From Petroclostridium xylanilyticum (lineage in GTDB: Bacteria > Bacillota > Clostridia > SK-Y3): a DNA stretch of 64,000 nucleotides. Shown in pieces: positions 15,527 through 39,578 of the stretch. Position numbers and translations under genes: made by a program. How positions within the stretch are numbered: the stretch's first letter is position 1; every line of letters begins with the position of its first letter. The stretch is taken from contig NZ_NPML01000029.1 in the NCBI RefSeq assembly GCF_002252565.1, positions 248,001-312,000 on the forward strand, given 5' to 3'. A model generated the notes under the pieces. The model saw only the letters and a program-made list of their open reading frames with translations. It was not told where the DNA came from and made no database searches.

Positions 15527-15875
15527 AAACTATTAACAAAACCAAGGATAAACGGATATACCAGCGTTATATGGTTGTACGTTATCACCTTAAAGGATAT
15601 ATCAATATAGATATATCCAATATGGTTGACTTATGCCGGCATACGGTAGGTACTTACGTTAATAAATATAAAGAAAATGGTCTTCTTGTTTTCTTACCTC
15701 CCTATAGCCCGAAACTTAATATGATTGAAGGGCTAGGGGATGGTTGAAATCAGATGTAATTAAGAATGTCTTCTACTCCTCTGCAAAACAGATTCGTGAA
15801 GCTGTAAGGGGTTTCATTAATTCAATTAACAATGTTCCGGAGCAGGTCATAAACAGGTTATGCCTGCGAATGTAA
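15527..15875 (+). pseudogene. Degraded IS630-family transposase (internal deletion and frameshift)
   Basis: An N-terminal helix-turn-helix part, reading KTKDKRIYQRYMVVRYHLKG onward to NKYKENGL, is joined directly to the C-terminal catalytic end VFLPPYSPKLNMIEGL, so the whole DDE core is deleted. One base is then missing: restoring it gives WGWLKSDVIKNVF and onward to INRLCLRM before TAA at 15873-15875. The PPYSPxLNxIE motif with the catalytic glutamate is diagnostic of IS630. It starts 2 bases after the S-component stop codon. It cannot encode an active transposase. Confidence 0.82.
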
Positions 15876-16139: not shown

Positions 16140-16279
16140 TCCTCTAAATTGCTCATAAAAAATTTTTAAAAATCTACAAATTTCTACAAAAAATTTATGA
16201 AAAGTATAGTATATTAATCTTGTGTTTTTAATGGGTCCATATAAAATATATATTATAAACAAAGGAGATGGTTTTAATT

Positions 16280-16717
16280 ATGAAACAATTTAAGTTATTA
16301 CCAATAATGTTGCTGGTTTGTTTATTTTTTATATCAATAACTGCTTATGCAAGTCCTAACGATTATGCGGTTAAAGACCAAGAAATTGTATTAGATTTAT
16401 CAATGAATTCTGATGGAGTTACTGTTACTTTTGTTAAACAGCCGGATGGCAGTTATAAATATATGTCTCAAGAAGACAAAATGCGTAGTGCGCCTTCTGA
16501 AGGGGAGATGACTAGTGCGGTCTCTCAAGTAGATGTAGTAACCTTTCATGTTGGTGTGAGAAATTGGACAAACTCACAAGCAGATTTATATTGGGAAGCG
16601 ACAAGTACTACACCAAATTTGACAGCTGTAAACGGTAACATTTATATTAAATCTACTAATATACTATTTCCGAAAACATACGCAAATGTAACTGCCATAA
16701 TACGTATTCTTCAATAG
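16280..16717 (+). CDS. Hypothetical secreted protein
   Basis: A 145-residue protein with a clear signal peptide: MKQF, a hydrophobic core at about residues 5-22, and a likely cleavage after AYA at about 25-27. The mature part is small and beta-rich in appearance, with VTVTFVKQPDGSYKYMS and FHVGVRNWTNSQADLYWEA, and no cysteines. ATG at 16280 follows AAAGGAG. I recognise no family. It lies between palindromic repeats and an orphan gene in the IS630-flanked stretch, so it may be part of an acquired segment. Confidence 0.65.
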   Translation: MKQFKLLPIMLLVCLFFISITAYASPNDYAVKDQEIVLDLSMNSDGVTVTFVKQPDGSYKYMSQEDKMRSAPSEGEMTSAVSQVDVVTFHVGVRNWTNSQADLYWEATSTTPNLTAVNGNIYIKSTNILFPKTYANVTAIIRILQ

Positions 16718-16774: not shown

Positions 16775-17503
16775 ATGGTTAAAATGTTTTTAGAAATTAA
16801 TTATGAAAAGGTGAAACATTATCCCGCAAATCATATTCCACAACATGATATAAAAGTATACAGCCGTGAAAACTCAGGGGATATAGATGTGTCTTTTATA
16901 GAAAATATCATAAGCAATAACTTAAATATTCAAATAGCATTAGCTGATCAATACTTTTTTGAGAGAGAATTTGATGCTAAAGTTGTAAGTTCAATTACGA
17001 TATCTGATAATAAATCGGTTGAAGATGAAATTAATAAGTTAACAACCATTTTTATGCGCGTAGTTGTCCCTTTTGATCAAAATGGTAGTCCATATATCAT
17101 TCAATTAAATGGTATAAATAAATTTGTAAAAGATATTTTTAAAGACATGATATTGAATGATAAAATTAATCCTATTCTTAAATTTTTTACGTTAGAAAAA
17201 TCATTTCTATGTGACTGCAATAGAACAGCTTTTTATGAATATATTGATTCTGACAAAATCAAGGATGATGAACAAGATTATAATTGCTTTAAAAATGATG
17301 AATATGTCAAATATATATTATCTGATCGAAAAAGGTTTACAAGTGCTTCTTTTATTAATGTATCCGGTTTCAGCATTGAAGAATTAAATAAAAGTGTATA
17401 CATTAAGTATTTAAAATCATTAGTGCGTAATTTGTATTTGTTTATATTCGATTGTAGTATTGATGATAAACCATACTATATAAAACAACTAAGGTGGTAT
17501 TAG
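16775..17503 (+). CDS. Hypothetical protein, possibly truncated at its 3' end
   Basis: A 242-residue AT-rich, charged, soluble-looking protein with no family motif that I recognise. It contains a small Cys pair (FLCDCNRTAFYEY, about 147-159). Start is ATG at 16775 or 16784; neither has a strong ribosome binding site. The reading frame stops exactly where the minus-strand IS630 fragment begins (about 17504), so its natural C-terminus was probably lost to an insertion. Confidence 0.5.
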   Translation: MVKMFLEINYEKVKHYPANHIPQHDIKVYSRENSGDIDVSFIENIISNNLNIQIALADQYFFEREFDAKVVSSITISDNKSVEDEINKLTTIFMRVVVPFDQNGSPYIIQLNGINKFVKDIFKDMILNDKINPILKFFTLEKSFLCDCNRTAFYEYIDSDKIKDDEQDYNCFKNDEYVKYILSDRKRFTSASFINVSGFSIEELNKSVYIKYLKSLVRNLYLFIFDCSIDDKPYYIKQLRWY

Positions 17504-17743
17504 TTGGCAATCTTTCTGAAAGTCACATTTCAACACATCCATGCCTCCAAAGATTGCTTTCTTTTTATTATTCCCTGGGGTAGGGATGCGCACCTGCTTT
17601 CCAGACGGCATCCACATCGCCCTCAAAGGAGGGAACAAATGGACATCAGATTCATCCATGAATACGACCAAATCGTCGGGTCCTGCATTCTCAATAGCCT
17701 CTCTTATGGCATTAATCTTTGCAGTAGCTTCAGAGTCTTTTTA
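17504..17743 (-). pseudogene. IS630-family transposase fragment (central DDE part)
   Basis: Read on the minus strand, this gives INAIREAIENAGPDDLVVFM, then DESDVHLFPPLRAMW, MPSGKQVRIPTPG and KKKAIFGGMDVL. That is the central catalytic part of an IS630 transposase with its second aspartate (FMDESD), lacking both ends. An in-frame stop precedes it and no start fits. It corresponds to the portion missing from the plus-strand remnant at 15527-15875, but sits in the opposite orientation 1.6 kb away. Confidence 0.78.
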
Positions 17744-17899: not shown

Positions 17900-18901
17900 A
17901 TGGTGTATTACATATCTATTGCATATATAATTGACCTTATTATTGGTGACCCCCATTGGTTACCCCATCCTATTTGTTTTATAGGAAATCTTATTGGCAA
18001 AACAGAAAAATTCTTAAGAAATGCCATAGATAGATCCAAACAATTAAATAAAGCAAAAACAGAAAAAATAGCGGGAATATTTCTGGTAATGATCGTTTTG
18101 CTTACAGTTCTATTGATAATTAGTATACTGCTATACTTTGCGAAAAAGATAGACGTATGGGTTTTTAAACAAGCACTACCCACCACCCACTACCCATTAC
18201 TCACGATACTAACTATCTATTTCCTCTTCTCCTGCCTTGCTACCAAATGCCTGGCTGTAGAAACCAGAAAAGTATTTTTTGCCCTAAAAGATAATGATTT
18301 GCCTCAAGCGAGAAAATATTTATCATATCTTGTAGGCAGAGAAACATCAAGTTTGACGGAGAAAGAAGTAATAAGGGCTGCAGTGGAAACGGTGGCTGAA
18401 AATATCGTGGATGGGATTGTTTCACCTCTTTTTTATGCTTTTATAGGTGGTCCGGTCCTGGCTTTTATTTATAAAGCTATTAACACGATGGATTCTATGG
18501 TGGGCTATATGAATGATAGATATATCAATTTCGGTTGGGCTGCTGCTAAACTGGATGATTTGGCAAATTATATTCCTGCCAGGATTACGGGGGTGGTGAT
18601 ACCCTTTGCTTCCGGCATTATTGGATATGACATTTCAAGAGGATATAAAATTATGTGGAGAGACCGCCGGAACCATAAAAGTCCCAACTGTGCCTACCCC
18701 GAAGCAGCTGTCGCCGGGGCACTGGGAGTAAGACTGGGTGGCACCAATGTGTATTTTGGAAAAGAAGTGTATAAACCGGCGATCGGAGACGAAAAGAGAC
18801 CTCTGGAAATTGAAGATATTGCACGTGCGATTAGGATTATGTATGCTACATCTTTTTTAAGTTTAATATTGTTTGGGATAGGGTATGTACTCATTAAGTA
18901 G
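17900..18901 (+). CDS. cbiB: Adenosylcobinamide-phosphate synthase CbiB
   Basis: Integral membrane enzyme that attaches the aminopropanol (phosphate) arm to adenosylcobyric acid. The 333 residues show the family blocks IIGDPHWLPHPICFIG (about 13-28), VGRETSSLTEKEVIRAAVET (about 144-163), NTMDSMVGYMNDRY (about 194-207) and PNCAYPEAAVAGALGVRLGG (about 258-277). It has about five membrane segments. GGAGAGGG precedes ATG. Compared with Salmonella CbiB there are about ten extra residues around KQALPTTHYPLL (about 91-102), where the DNA resembles a dispersed repeat. First gene of the main cobalamin cluster. Confidence 0.95.
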   Translation: MVYYISIAYIIDLIIGDPHWLPHPICFIGNLIGKTEKFLRNAIDRSKQLNKAKTEKIAGIFLVMIVLLTVLLIISILLYFAKKIDVWVFKQALPTTHYPLLTILTIYFLFSCLATKCLAVETRKVFFALKDNDLPQARKYLSYLVGRETSSLTEKEVIRAAVETVAENIVDGIVSPLFYAFIGGPVLAFIYKAINTMDSMVGYMNDRYINFGWAAAKLDDLANYIPARITGVVIPFASGIIGYDISRGYKIMWRDRRNHKSPNCAYPEAAVAGALGVRLGGTNVYFGKEVYKPAIGDEKRPLEIEDIARAIRIMYATSFLSLILFGIGYVLIK

Positions 18902-18934
18902 CGGGAGAGCGTGAGACACAACCGCACTGTCGCA

Positions 18935-19061
18935 GATGTGTATCATCATATATGGAATGTTGCAGCCGGAAAATCGCCATGGAGGGCGATTTTAGGCTTA
19001 TCCCGGCACGGATGCCGGTATAAGCCGACGGCAAGACATGGAGTATATGATGATACACATC
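18935..19061. repeat. 127-base structured palindrome in the cobalamin operon
   Basis: GATGTGTATCATCATATATG at the left pairs with GTATATGATGATACACATC at the right. Inside are two further hairpins, AAAATCGCC with GGGCGATTTT and GGCTTATCCCGGCAC with GATGCCGGTATAAGCC, so RNA or single-stranded DNA would fold into a multi-branch structure. It fills most of the cbiB-cobD spacer. Either a MITE-like repeat or a structured RNA is possible. Confidence 0.65.
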
Positions 19062-19104
19062 CTAGTCAACAGAAAAATAATAAAGGTGGAAATGGAGATA
19101 ATTT

Positions 19105-20226
19105 ATGAACTTGCGGAAAGATGTTCATGGTGGCAACGTATACAGAGCCAGAGATGAATATGGTATAAGTATTGGAGAAATATTGGATTACAGTGCCAAT
19201 ATTAATCCACTGGGAGTGCCTGAATCTTTACAGAAAGCAATTATGAATAATATGAATCTTTTGACCCGCTATCCTGATCCTGATTATACCGGAGCCAAAA
19301 GAAGCCTTGCTGAATTCAACCATGTAAATGAGTCTAATGTTATTATGGGAAATGGTGCTACTGAAATCATCTTTTTAATAATGGAGGTTCTGAAGCCAAA
19401 AAAAGTGCTTATTCCCTGTCCAAGCTTTTCAGAATATGAACAGGCAGCGTTATTTGCCGATTGTGAGGTAGAACACTATAGGATAAAAGAGGAAGAAGAT
19501 TATATCCTTGACAGCAGGGATTTGATGGAATCTCTTACAGAAGACATTGAAATGCTTGTCCTTTGTAATCCCAATAATCCCACCAGTCAGATCATTGAAA
19601 GAAAGCCGATGAAGGATATCTTGGATTTCTGCAGGGAAAAGGGAATAACAGTAGTAATAGACGAAGCGTTTATAGACTTTGTGGATGAGGAATTTAATAT
19701 ATCGATGGTTGATGAATTGAGTGTTTACCCAAACCTGTTTATAATAAAAGCCCTTACAAAGATTTTTGCCATCCCCGGTTTAAGGTTGGGATACGGCATA
19801 GGCAGTGAAAGATTAATCAAGCGGTTGGAATTAAAAAAGCAGCCCTGGACTTTAAATAATATGGCAAGCCTGGCTGCAGAAATACTTCCTAAGGATAGGA
19901 AATATATTGAAGAAACAAAAAAATGGATTAAGGCTGAACGACTGAGATTTTTTAGTAAATTAAGCAGTATAAATGGCATAAAAGTATACGAACCCTTTTG
20001 CAATTTTATCTTAATAAAGCTGCTTGATGACCGCTTAACAAGTTACAATTTATGTGAAAAAATGGCCCAGAAGGGCATATTGGTACGAAATGCCGCCAAT
20101 TTTATTTTTCTGGATGAAAAATATATAAGAATTGCAATTAAAGATCAAAGGAGCAATGACATATTTCTGGAGAAATTTGTGAAAACACTGGAAGAGGTGA
20201 AAGCAACCGATGGAATATATACATGA
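19105..20226 (+). CDS. cobD: L-threonine-O-3-phosphate decarboxylase CobD-like aminotransferase
   Basis: A PLP enzyme of the histidinol-phosphate aminotransferase fold. In this context it should make (R)-1-aminopropan-2-ol O-2-phosphate, the arm used by CbiB. The 373 residues contain LDYSANINPLGVP (about 28-40), GNGATEIIFL (about 81-90), CNPNNPTSQ (about 153-161) and the PLP lysine in IIKALTKIFAIPGLRLGYG (about 213-231). GGAG precedes ATG. The 3' end overlaps cbiC by 17 bases. HisC activity cannot be excluded by sequence, but the operon favours CobD. Confidence 0.92.
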   Translation: MNLRKDVHGGNVYRARDEYGISIGEILDYSANINPLGVPESLQKAIMNNMNLLTRYPDPDYTGAKRSLAEFNHVNESNVIMGNGATEIIFLIMEVLKPKKVLIPCPSFSEYEQAALFADCEVEHYRIKEEEDYILDSRDLMESLTEDIEMLVLCNPNNPTSQIIERKPMKDILDFCREKGITVVIDEAFIDFVDEEFNISMVDELSVYPNLFIIKALTKIFAIPGLRLGYGIGSERLIKRLELKKQPWTLNNMASLAAEILPKDRKYIEETKKWIKAERLRFFSKLSSINGIKVYEPFCNFILIKLLDDRLTSYNLCEKMAQKGILVRNAANFIFLDEKYIRIAIKDQRSNDIFLEKFVKTLEEVKATDGIYT

Positions 20227-39366: not shown

Positions 39367-39408
39367 TATATATAACACTAAATATATAACACTAAATATA
39401 TAACACTA
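39367..39408. repeat. Three 14-base tandem repeats (AATATATAACACTA)
   Basis: TATATATAACACTA, AATATATAACACTA and AATATATAACACTA follow each other directly after nadA. The TATAACACT core is also present (inverted) as AGTGTTATA in the nadA promoter spacer at 38391-38399. Confidence 0.75.
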
Positions 39409-39432
39409 AGTATGTTACATTATTGTTATTTT

Positions 39433-39502
39433 GTTCACGGTTCACAGTTCTCAGTTCACAGAAATTAGCCAAGAAAATCCTGTGAACCGTGAACTGTGAA
39501 CT
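39433..39502. repeat. GTTCAC-rich dispersed repeat, family A, short copy
   Basis: GTTCACGGTTCACAG at the left and CTGTGAACCGTGAAC at the right form a perfect 15-base inverted repeat around about 33 bases, followed by a further TGTGAACT. It lacks the ATTATATATTTACTG flank of the long copies. It lies between nadA and nadB. Confidence 0.78.
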
Positions 39503-39578
39503 AAAATAGACAATGTAAAGTACTTAGTAATACTTATATAGATTAAAAGGTTAATAAATAATTTTAGGAGAGAGAGCC

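Follow-up and report, generated by a model that had tools for sequence, protein, structure and literature searches.

The locus and its fold

The window (the whole 64-kb stretch of DNA analysed here) carries, on its + strand, cbiB (open reading frame 17900–18901; PF03186, E 2e-108) and, downstream of it, an open reading frame at the cobD position (19105–20226; PF00155), whose product has an aminotransferase fold and is by position an L-threonine-phosphate decarboxylase; cbiC (PF02570) comes after it. Between the first two genes, where the preliminary description had placed it, lies a 127-base branched palindrome (18935–19061) in which an outer stem encloses two inner hairpins, and its bounds fall within two bases of a match to the TwoAYGGAY RNA element of Rfam (RF01731; 18934–19063, + strand; model positions 15–155 of 168; cmscan 54 bits, the gathering score being 43; E 4.4e-06). 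The cbiB stop codon lies 32 nt 5' of this match and the cobD start 41 nt 3' of it; the element itself is non-coding, with no open reading frame of 80 aa or more across 18934–19063.

That the palindrome is real is evident from its perfect arms and from the folding energy of positions 18900–19100, which on the + strand is -84.6 kcal/mol, as against -48.0 (sd 4.2) for 200 shuffles (z -8.8), and on the - strand -80.1 kcal/mol (z -8.95), with no shuffle as good in either case. The outer arms (18935–18952 and 19044–19061) are 100% complementary over 18 nt and make up the terminal inverted repeats of the window element, the 3' arm being further supported by covariation among 18 copies from the same genome. 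On the + strand, the long stem leads into an internal loop, where GGA at 18954–18956 stands opposite GGA at 19040–19042 in what we infer from the fold to be a tandem-GA-like arrangement, and from there into two hairpins. Hairpin 1 (18970–18993) has the stem AAAATCGCC/GGCGATTTT and the hexaloop AUGGAG, of the CsrA-type ANGGAN class, with its GGA at 18981–18983; hairpin 2 (18995–19026) has the apex CCGGCA-CGGA-UGCCGG, with the loop A-CGGA-U and its GGA at 19010–19012. Both hairpins come from the fold and recur in the comparison of 50 genomes described below.

A TwoAYGGAY RNA in a dispersed repeat

RF01731 is the sole gathering-level Rfam match in the 64-kb window. The two loops on a common stem form an AYGGAY-type pair, save that the final letter of the first is G and not Y. 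In the table of Weinberg et al. 2010, the entry for TwoAYGGAY is scored ‘y’ as probably RNA and ‘n’ as cis-regulatory (PMC2864571); the Rfam record assigns it the type Cis-reg and clan CL00106. A 2014 paper (PMC4333381) states that the TwoAYGGAY hairpins fit a CsrA-binding motif, and proposes CsrA-binding sRNAs in Clostridia, the validation of which was then under way. The CsrA-binding proposal is thus already in print; in our searches of the open-access literature, we found neither an account of TwoAYGGAY mobility, nor of the match to flagellin leaders that we describe below, nor an experimental test of the element as a CsrA ligand.

In its own genome (3.86 Mb, 41 contigs) the palindrome has 30 BLAST matches at E<=0.001. 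The best 18 of these cover at least 106 bases of the 147-base query at 82–100% identity, the other 12 being shorter fragments; the RF01731 covariance model finds 12 matches at E<=0.001, 10 of them over the cut-off. At this threshold all 29 other BLAST matches lie outside the window, such that the earlier remark that nothing similar is seen elsewhere in it holds, but the idea of a ‘solitary MITE’ stands only in its second word: a solitary element is ruled out by the further matches, whilst a dispersed MITE-like repeat agrees both with the genome-wide matches and with the duplications seen in other genomes. The preliminary description had also taken many unrelated genomic copies as a sign of a MITE and not an RNA switch. 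Such copies are present, yet so is covariation, which together with the RF01731 match upholds its alternative suggestion of a structured RNA; the element is both at once, a structured RNA within a mobile-looking repeat; it belongs to RF01731 and is at the same time one of the copies of a MITE-like family.

By eye, the flanks of the own-genome copies fall into two main kinds: type A, found in the window copy and at least L002–L004, L006 and L007, and type B, with far longer arms (TATATAAATAACACTAAATATATTACAT...). The left flank of the window copy (18902–18933, + strand) resembles that of the type A copies (..GGAG..GYGAGACACAA..; compared by eye with L001–L004, L006 and L007), and element-related sequence seems to begin directly 3' of the cbiB stop codon. 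A script search found no consistent target-site duplication among the 18 own-genome copies, and we therefore call the element of this genome only ‘MITE-like’.

Following the type B end pattern through the genome reached no transposase but did reveal a second repeat family, in which type B-like ends sit on a different inner palindrome. One such element lies in the window near 39367–39541, with the ends TATATAACACTAAGTATGTTACATT / AATGTAAAGTACTTAGTAATACTTATATAG and the inner palindrome GTTCACGGTTCACAG...; short tandem units of TAACACTAAATATA lie 5' of it. An end pattern (<=3 mismatches) has 41 occurrences genome-wide, including at the ends of type B TwoAYGGAY copies. A search of the genome for an IS630-type (DDE_3) parent transposase found none, returning two weak fragments below the curated cut-off. 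These pieces, the sole DDE_3 matches in the genome at E<=0.001, both lie in the window, at 15640–15735 (+ strand; DDE_3 positions 94–125) and 17531–17668 (- strand; DDE_3 positions 2–47); on opposite strands, they bracket two open reading frames (16268–16717 and 16775–17503) that have no Pfam match at E<=0.001.

Bacterial MITEs include the Correia/NEMIS elements and, reportedly, MITEAba12. The element resembles such MITEs in being dispersed, palindromic, non-coding and short, and in two lineages (G037 and G407, below) also by its target-site duplications; it differs in that the part common across TwoAYGGAY lineages is an internal RNA-like module and not the ends. Set against the TwoAYGGAY RNA as previously described, the likeness is close (the score exceeds the curated threshold, the strand agrees and there are two AYGGAY-type-loop hairpins), but the descriptions that we found present an RNA or candidate CsrA-binding sRNA, whereas what we see is a high-copy, lineage-specific MITE-like repeat.

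Copies in other genomes

At E<=0.001, RF01731 has matches in 27 of the 291 genomes sampled from the window's class, 19 of which exceed the cut-off; for the phylum (class and phylum being probably Clostridia-like Bacillota) the figures are 51 of 398 and 34. At most six to nine candidates were scored per genome in these runs; full scoring of nine hand-picked other genomes gave 18, 10, 4, 18, 23, 11, 55, 11 and 28 matches. The family is often multi-copy in both class and phylum. For closer comparison we retrieved 100 regions and put together a set of 114 copies from 27 genomes, made up of 102 of the 112 class-run matches outside the own genome and 12 own-genome copies; of the ten omitted, some were incomplete or ran into contig ends and the others were not retrieved. 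In several genomes (e.g. G037, G219) the copies are near-identical at unrelated sites, and between genomes the sequences diverge.

In G037, direct repeats of 8–10 bp flank the same element ends in five of nine copies, and possible duplications of the same length accompany three of eight copies in G178. In G407, both ends could be recognised in 36 of 40 copies, of which 25 are flanked by a duplication of 17–29 bp (<=1 mismatch), two more by one of 8 or 12 bp and nine, by script, by none. In many cases the duplicated sequence in G407 is a whole terminator-like hairpin, and this suggests that insertion there involves an extruded hairpin that is cut at its base. Outside G037 and G407 the script returned chance-like groupings of one to three copies per genome, and the groupings in G219, and probably those in G056 and G464, lie inside the element. 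The same ends also bound shorter elements in G407, as pairs 111–116 bp apart; four of these were read off coordinates and one (115 bp, L324) was read fully, the latter having no TwoAYGGAY arm and being flanked by near-duplicated terminator-like hairpins.

Terminator-like hairpins stand on both sides of G407 copies (L246–L285; e.g. L264, L266 and L284), and the 17–29 bp duplication tracks the hairpin, unlike a target duplication of fixed length. Of a different character are the copies in G464 (L286–L296), where 18 of the 23 listed matches are core-only (~65 nt, model positions 46–112), with the core hairpins kept and the outer arms off-model. In G201 (18 matches; L043, L069, L076–L082, L297–L303), in contrast to the near-identical copies of G037 and G219, there are many stem differences, with pairing and loops mostly kept as judged by eye; the G201 copies are possibly an older, functionally maintained set.

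With respect to the neighbouring open reading frames, the 114 copies are arranged ++ in 25 cases, -- in 35, +- in 28 and -+ in 15, with one neighbour missing in the remaining 11. The neighbours here are simple open reading frames; the bias between ++ and -- is not significant (p 0.25). The gene context of the 40 G407 copies (+- 17, ++ 12, -- 10, -+ 1) is one of gene ends and not of divergent promoters. A general 5'-UTR regulator finds no support in these unbiased counts. Among the 12 own-genome copies, 10 come after a co-directional open reading frame.

Conservation of the RNA structure

When each of the 114 copies was folded, exactly two GGA-loop hairpins appeared in 97, one in 13 and three in 4. 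We then compared 50 genomes (the 27 of the class and those 23 of 47 further phylum genomes that had a usable locus), taking the first two-hairpin copy in each; a copy with exactly two GGA-loop hairpins is present in 49 of the 50, although both the Rfam hits and the choice of copy partly select for the loops. At stem levels 3–6 of both hairpins, GC, CG, AT and TA pairs are all seen in this set, with the apical C-G/A-U pairs and the A(N)GGA nearly constant.

The 18 own-genome copies, having been found by BLAST, are free of this loop selection. Among them 95.3% of cells are paired, two-sided pair changes number 10 as against 6.2 in shuffles (7 of 500 as high), and covariation is 0.209 as against 0.126 (0 of 500 as high). 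Nine of the ten two-sided changes fall in the outer stem, and since such changes can also arise through template-switch correction of palindromes, they do not by themselves prove selection on an RNA. In the same copies, the loop GGA columns show no more conservation than other columns do (pairwise difference 0.108 and 0.098, respectively), i.e. we found no post-insertion selection on the loops, and individual copies therefore seem to drift neutrally; most of them may be inert. The six loop columns of G407 are invariant in all 40 copies, although not significantly so when compared with random inner columns (P 0.18). As the loops are kept across lineages whilst copies drift within the genome, we suggest that selection acts on a few active or source copies and not on every insertion.

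A proposed connection with CsrA

CsrA is described as having the SELEX consensus RUACARGGAUGU and a preferred loop of ANGGAN, with CsrB repeats of CAGGA(U/A/C)G, and most SELEX hairpins as having at most four contiguous pairs (PMC7652899). For the most part, the TwoAYGGAY loops of both the 114-copy and the 50-genome set have the sequence CA(N)GGA(N)G, on stems longer than those of most of the SELEX hairpins.

In the own genome, csrA adjoins fliW and flagellin, and the flagellin leader contains AAAATCA-TGGA-TGATTTT 5' of its Shine-Dalgarno site. We examined 44 csrA loci (32 from genomes bearing the family and 12 from genomes without it), several of which end early at contig ends, and could recognise the flagellin start in 22. 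Of these leaders, 20 have an A(N)GGA-loop hairpin 5' of the Shine-Dalgarno site, compared with 63 of 1100 shuffled leaders and one of nine leaders of other open reading frames; the hairpin is present in 11 of 13 genomes with the TwoAYGGAY family and in 9 of 9 without it. The element and the CsrA site of the flagellin (hag) leader thus have hairpin loops of the same class, A(N)GGA; the leader site differs in being a single hairpin plus a Shine-Dalgarno site on an mRNA leader. In the own genome the likeness goes further, in that the stem core AAAATCA/TGATTTT is also found in hairpin 1 of most copies. Saying this, a second genome (G055) has the same flagellin leader but no such stem likeness to its TwoAYGGAY hairpin, and the shared stem core may therefore be a matter of chance.

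The distribution of the family follows that of csrA. In the class sample 23 of the 27 carriers of the family have csrA, as do 71 of the 264 non-carriers (p 3.6e-9; 20 of 21 and 66 of 216 if only good-quality genomes are counted, p 4.8e-9); in the phylum sample the figures are 49 of 51 and 236 of 347, respectively (p 4.1e-6). The overlaps rest on a tally of the tables by eye, and the p values ignore phylogeny and motility. Four positive genomes are common to both samples, and without them the phylum count is 45 of 47 (p 2.0e-5); among genomes over the Rfam cut-off only, csrA is found in 16 of 19 (class) and 33 of 34 (phylum). The six family-bearing genomes that have no csrA also have no fliW (0 of 6, as against 8 of 8 others tested); four of them are 75–88% complete and two 94–95%, the absence reflecting either a lost system or a missing contig. 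In the csrA-less carriers that we looked at (G178, G219, G258 and G276), most loops are intact.

In having GGA-loop hairpins the family recalls the sRNAs CsrB/CsrC and RsmX/Y/Z, which titrate CsrA, although for TwoAYGGAY titration is only proposed. It departs from them in being spread over many copies at scattered sites, each with two hairpin loops; the number of promoter-like sites around the element is close to that expected by chance (9, as against 6.4, sd 2.3). A single CsrB sRNA, by comparison, contains 22 GGA sequences (PMC7652899).

A probable decoy cargo on a mobile-looking element

Synthesising these observations, we consider it probable that a non-autonomous, dispersed MITE-like repeat carries the palindrome, itself a copy of the TwoAYGGAY RNA, as CsrA-decoy RNA cargo, with no role specific to cobalamin. 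In such a model, the repeat would spread as DNA to intergenic sites, the window copy having presumably inserted just past the cbiB stop codon. Once transcribed (in the window, by read-through from cbiB towards cobD), a copy would yield an RNA with a long stem ending in two A(N)GGA-loop hairpins, each of them the kind of site to which a CsrA dimer binds with one of its faces, and of the same type as that found in flagellin (hag) leaders. The copies could then act mainly as distributed CsrA decoys, with an effect on the host transcript that would be modest at most. Binding CsrA as scattered decoys is the likeliest function of the family.

The strongest challenge to this proposal is that the element is a plain MITE, with a palindrome kept because a transposase recognises the DNA or a single-stranded hairpin and with GGA loops that are landmarks for that enzyme, having no function as RNA. 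The drift of the own-genome loops, which show no extra conservation, would fit such an element, as would the target-site duplications in G037 and G407, the want of orientation bias and the mostly intact loops of csrA-less genomes. Against it, the same ends are found 111–116 bp apart in G407, including the L324 element that lacks the TwoAYGGAY arm, and the type B ends of the own genome also enclose a different inner palindrome; the arm thus seems not to be needed for spread. It is, moreover, the loops that are common across lineages, whilst ends and duplications differ, and these loops match the hairpin of flagellin leaders in a family that tracks csrA. On balance we regard a plain MITE as unlikely, though it deserves to be kept in mind.

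Returning to the decoy-cargo proposal, we also put forward, tentatively and as a possibility that we ourselves find doubtful, that one and the same RNA cargo, namely a two-hairpin mimic of the flagellin-leader CsrA site, has been acquired or retained several times over by unrelated miniature transposons of the phylum (probably Bacillota), such that the copy number of a selfish element sets the level of CsrA. Were this so, each carrier genome would hold many mobile CsrA decoys, their copy number governing flagellin and the rest of the regulon, and the family would be an RNA counterpart to FliW that has spread by transposition. Dedicated sRNA antagonists of CsrA were, according to the 2014 paper, known only in Gammaproteobacteria (PMC4333381); elsewhere CsrA is restrained by the protein FliW and, in Campylobacter, also by the flaA mRNA (PMC4894983). 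A mobile, high-copy decoy would mean a global regulator that can be tuned by transposon load. The likeness to the flagellin leader, together with the co-occurrence with csrA, makes the CsrA-ligand proposal directly testable.

The cobalamin context

The preliminary description had suggested, as one possibility, control of the downstream cobalamin genes, and here the evidence goes the other way. Among the five other genomes of the window's family in the collection, just one (G156) has a close CobD, 70% identical; its cbiB stop codon lies 278 nt 5' of the presumed CobD start, a TTG. At E<=1 the cbiB-cobD locus of G156 is free of RF01731 matches, and the class-wide search, with its stricter filters, likewise found none in this genome. 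The other own-genome copies adjoin unrelated genes, with no common function that could be discerned by eye, and over the larger sets there is no significant orientation bias. From the absence of the element from the G156 spacer, and from its dispersal in the own genome, we conclude that its location between cbiB and cobD is one of chance and not that of a cobalamin switch: its place among B12 genes appears incidental, and a part for the window copy in the control of cobalamin genes is improbable. More generally, annotators should not take an RF01731 match next to a gene as a sign that the gene is under its control.

There are grounds, nonetheless, on which a local role might be argued, in which CsrA or some other factor binds the window copy and so sets translation or polarity within the cbiB-cobD operon. 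The copy is co-directional with cobD and stands 41 nt 5' of its start; the Shine-Dalgarno region of cobD also contains GGA (GGTGGAAATGGAG; GGA at 19088 and 19094); Rfam types the family as Cis-reg; and a co-directional open reading frame lies upstream of 10 of the 12 own-genome copies. This last bias is absent both over the 114 copies and in the 40 copies of G407 (12 as against 10), however, the neighbours of copies have no common function by eye, the element is missing from cbiB-cobD of G156, and the tabulated score for cis-regulation in Weinberg 2010 is, as noted, negative (PMC2864571). Such a cis-regulator of cobD strikes us as quite improbable.

A cobalamin-sensing riboswitch of a new kind we find scarcely credible: the element does sit in a cobalamin operon, and no known cobalamin riboswitch is present in the window at the gathering score, but its copies lie throughout the genome at unrelated genes, and an RF00174 match near the CobD homologue of a relative (G110), below threshold and clipped by the end of the locus (27.8 bits, cut-off 31.5), hints at control by an ordinary riboswitch in the family. 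As to known cobalamin riboswitches, the earlier impression that none is visible was borne out, with no RF00174 match at gathering in the window and none at E<=5 in 18700–19300; this candidate too was rejected, on these searches and on those of the loci in the relatives. The CobD-homologue locus of G110 also contains, at L151 414–495, a Clostridiales-2 RNA (RF02937; 70.7 bits, over the cut-off).
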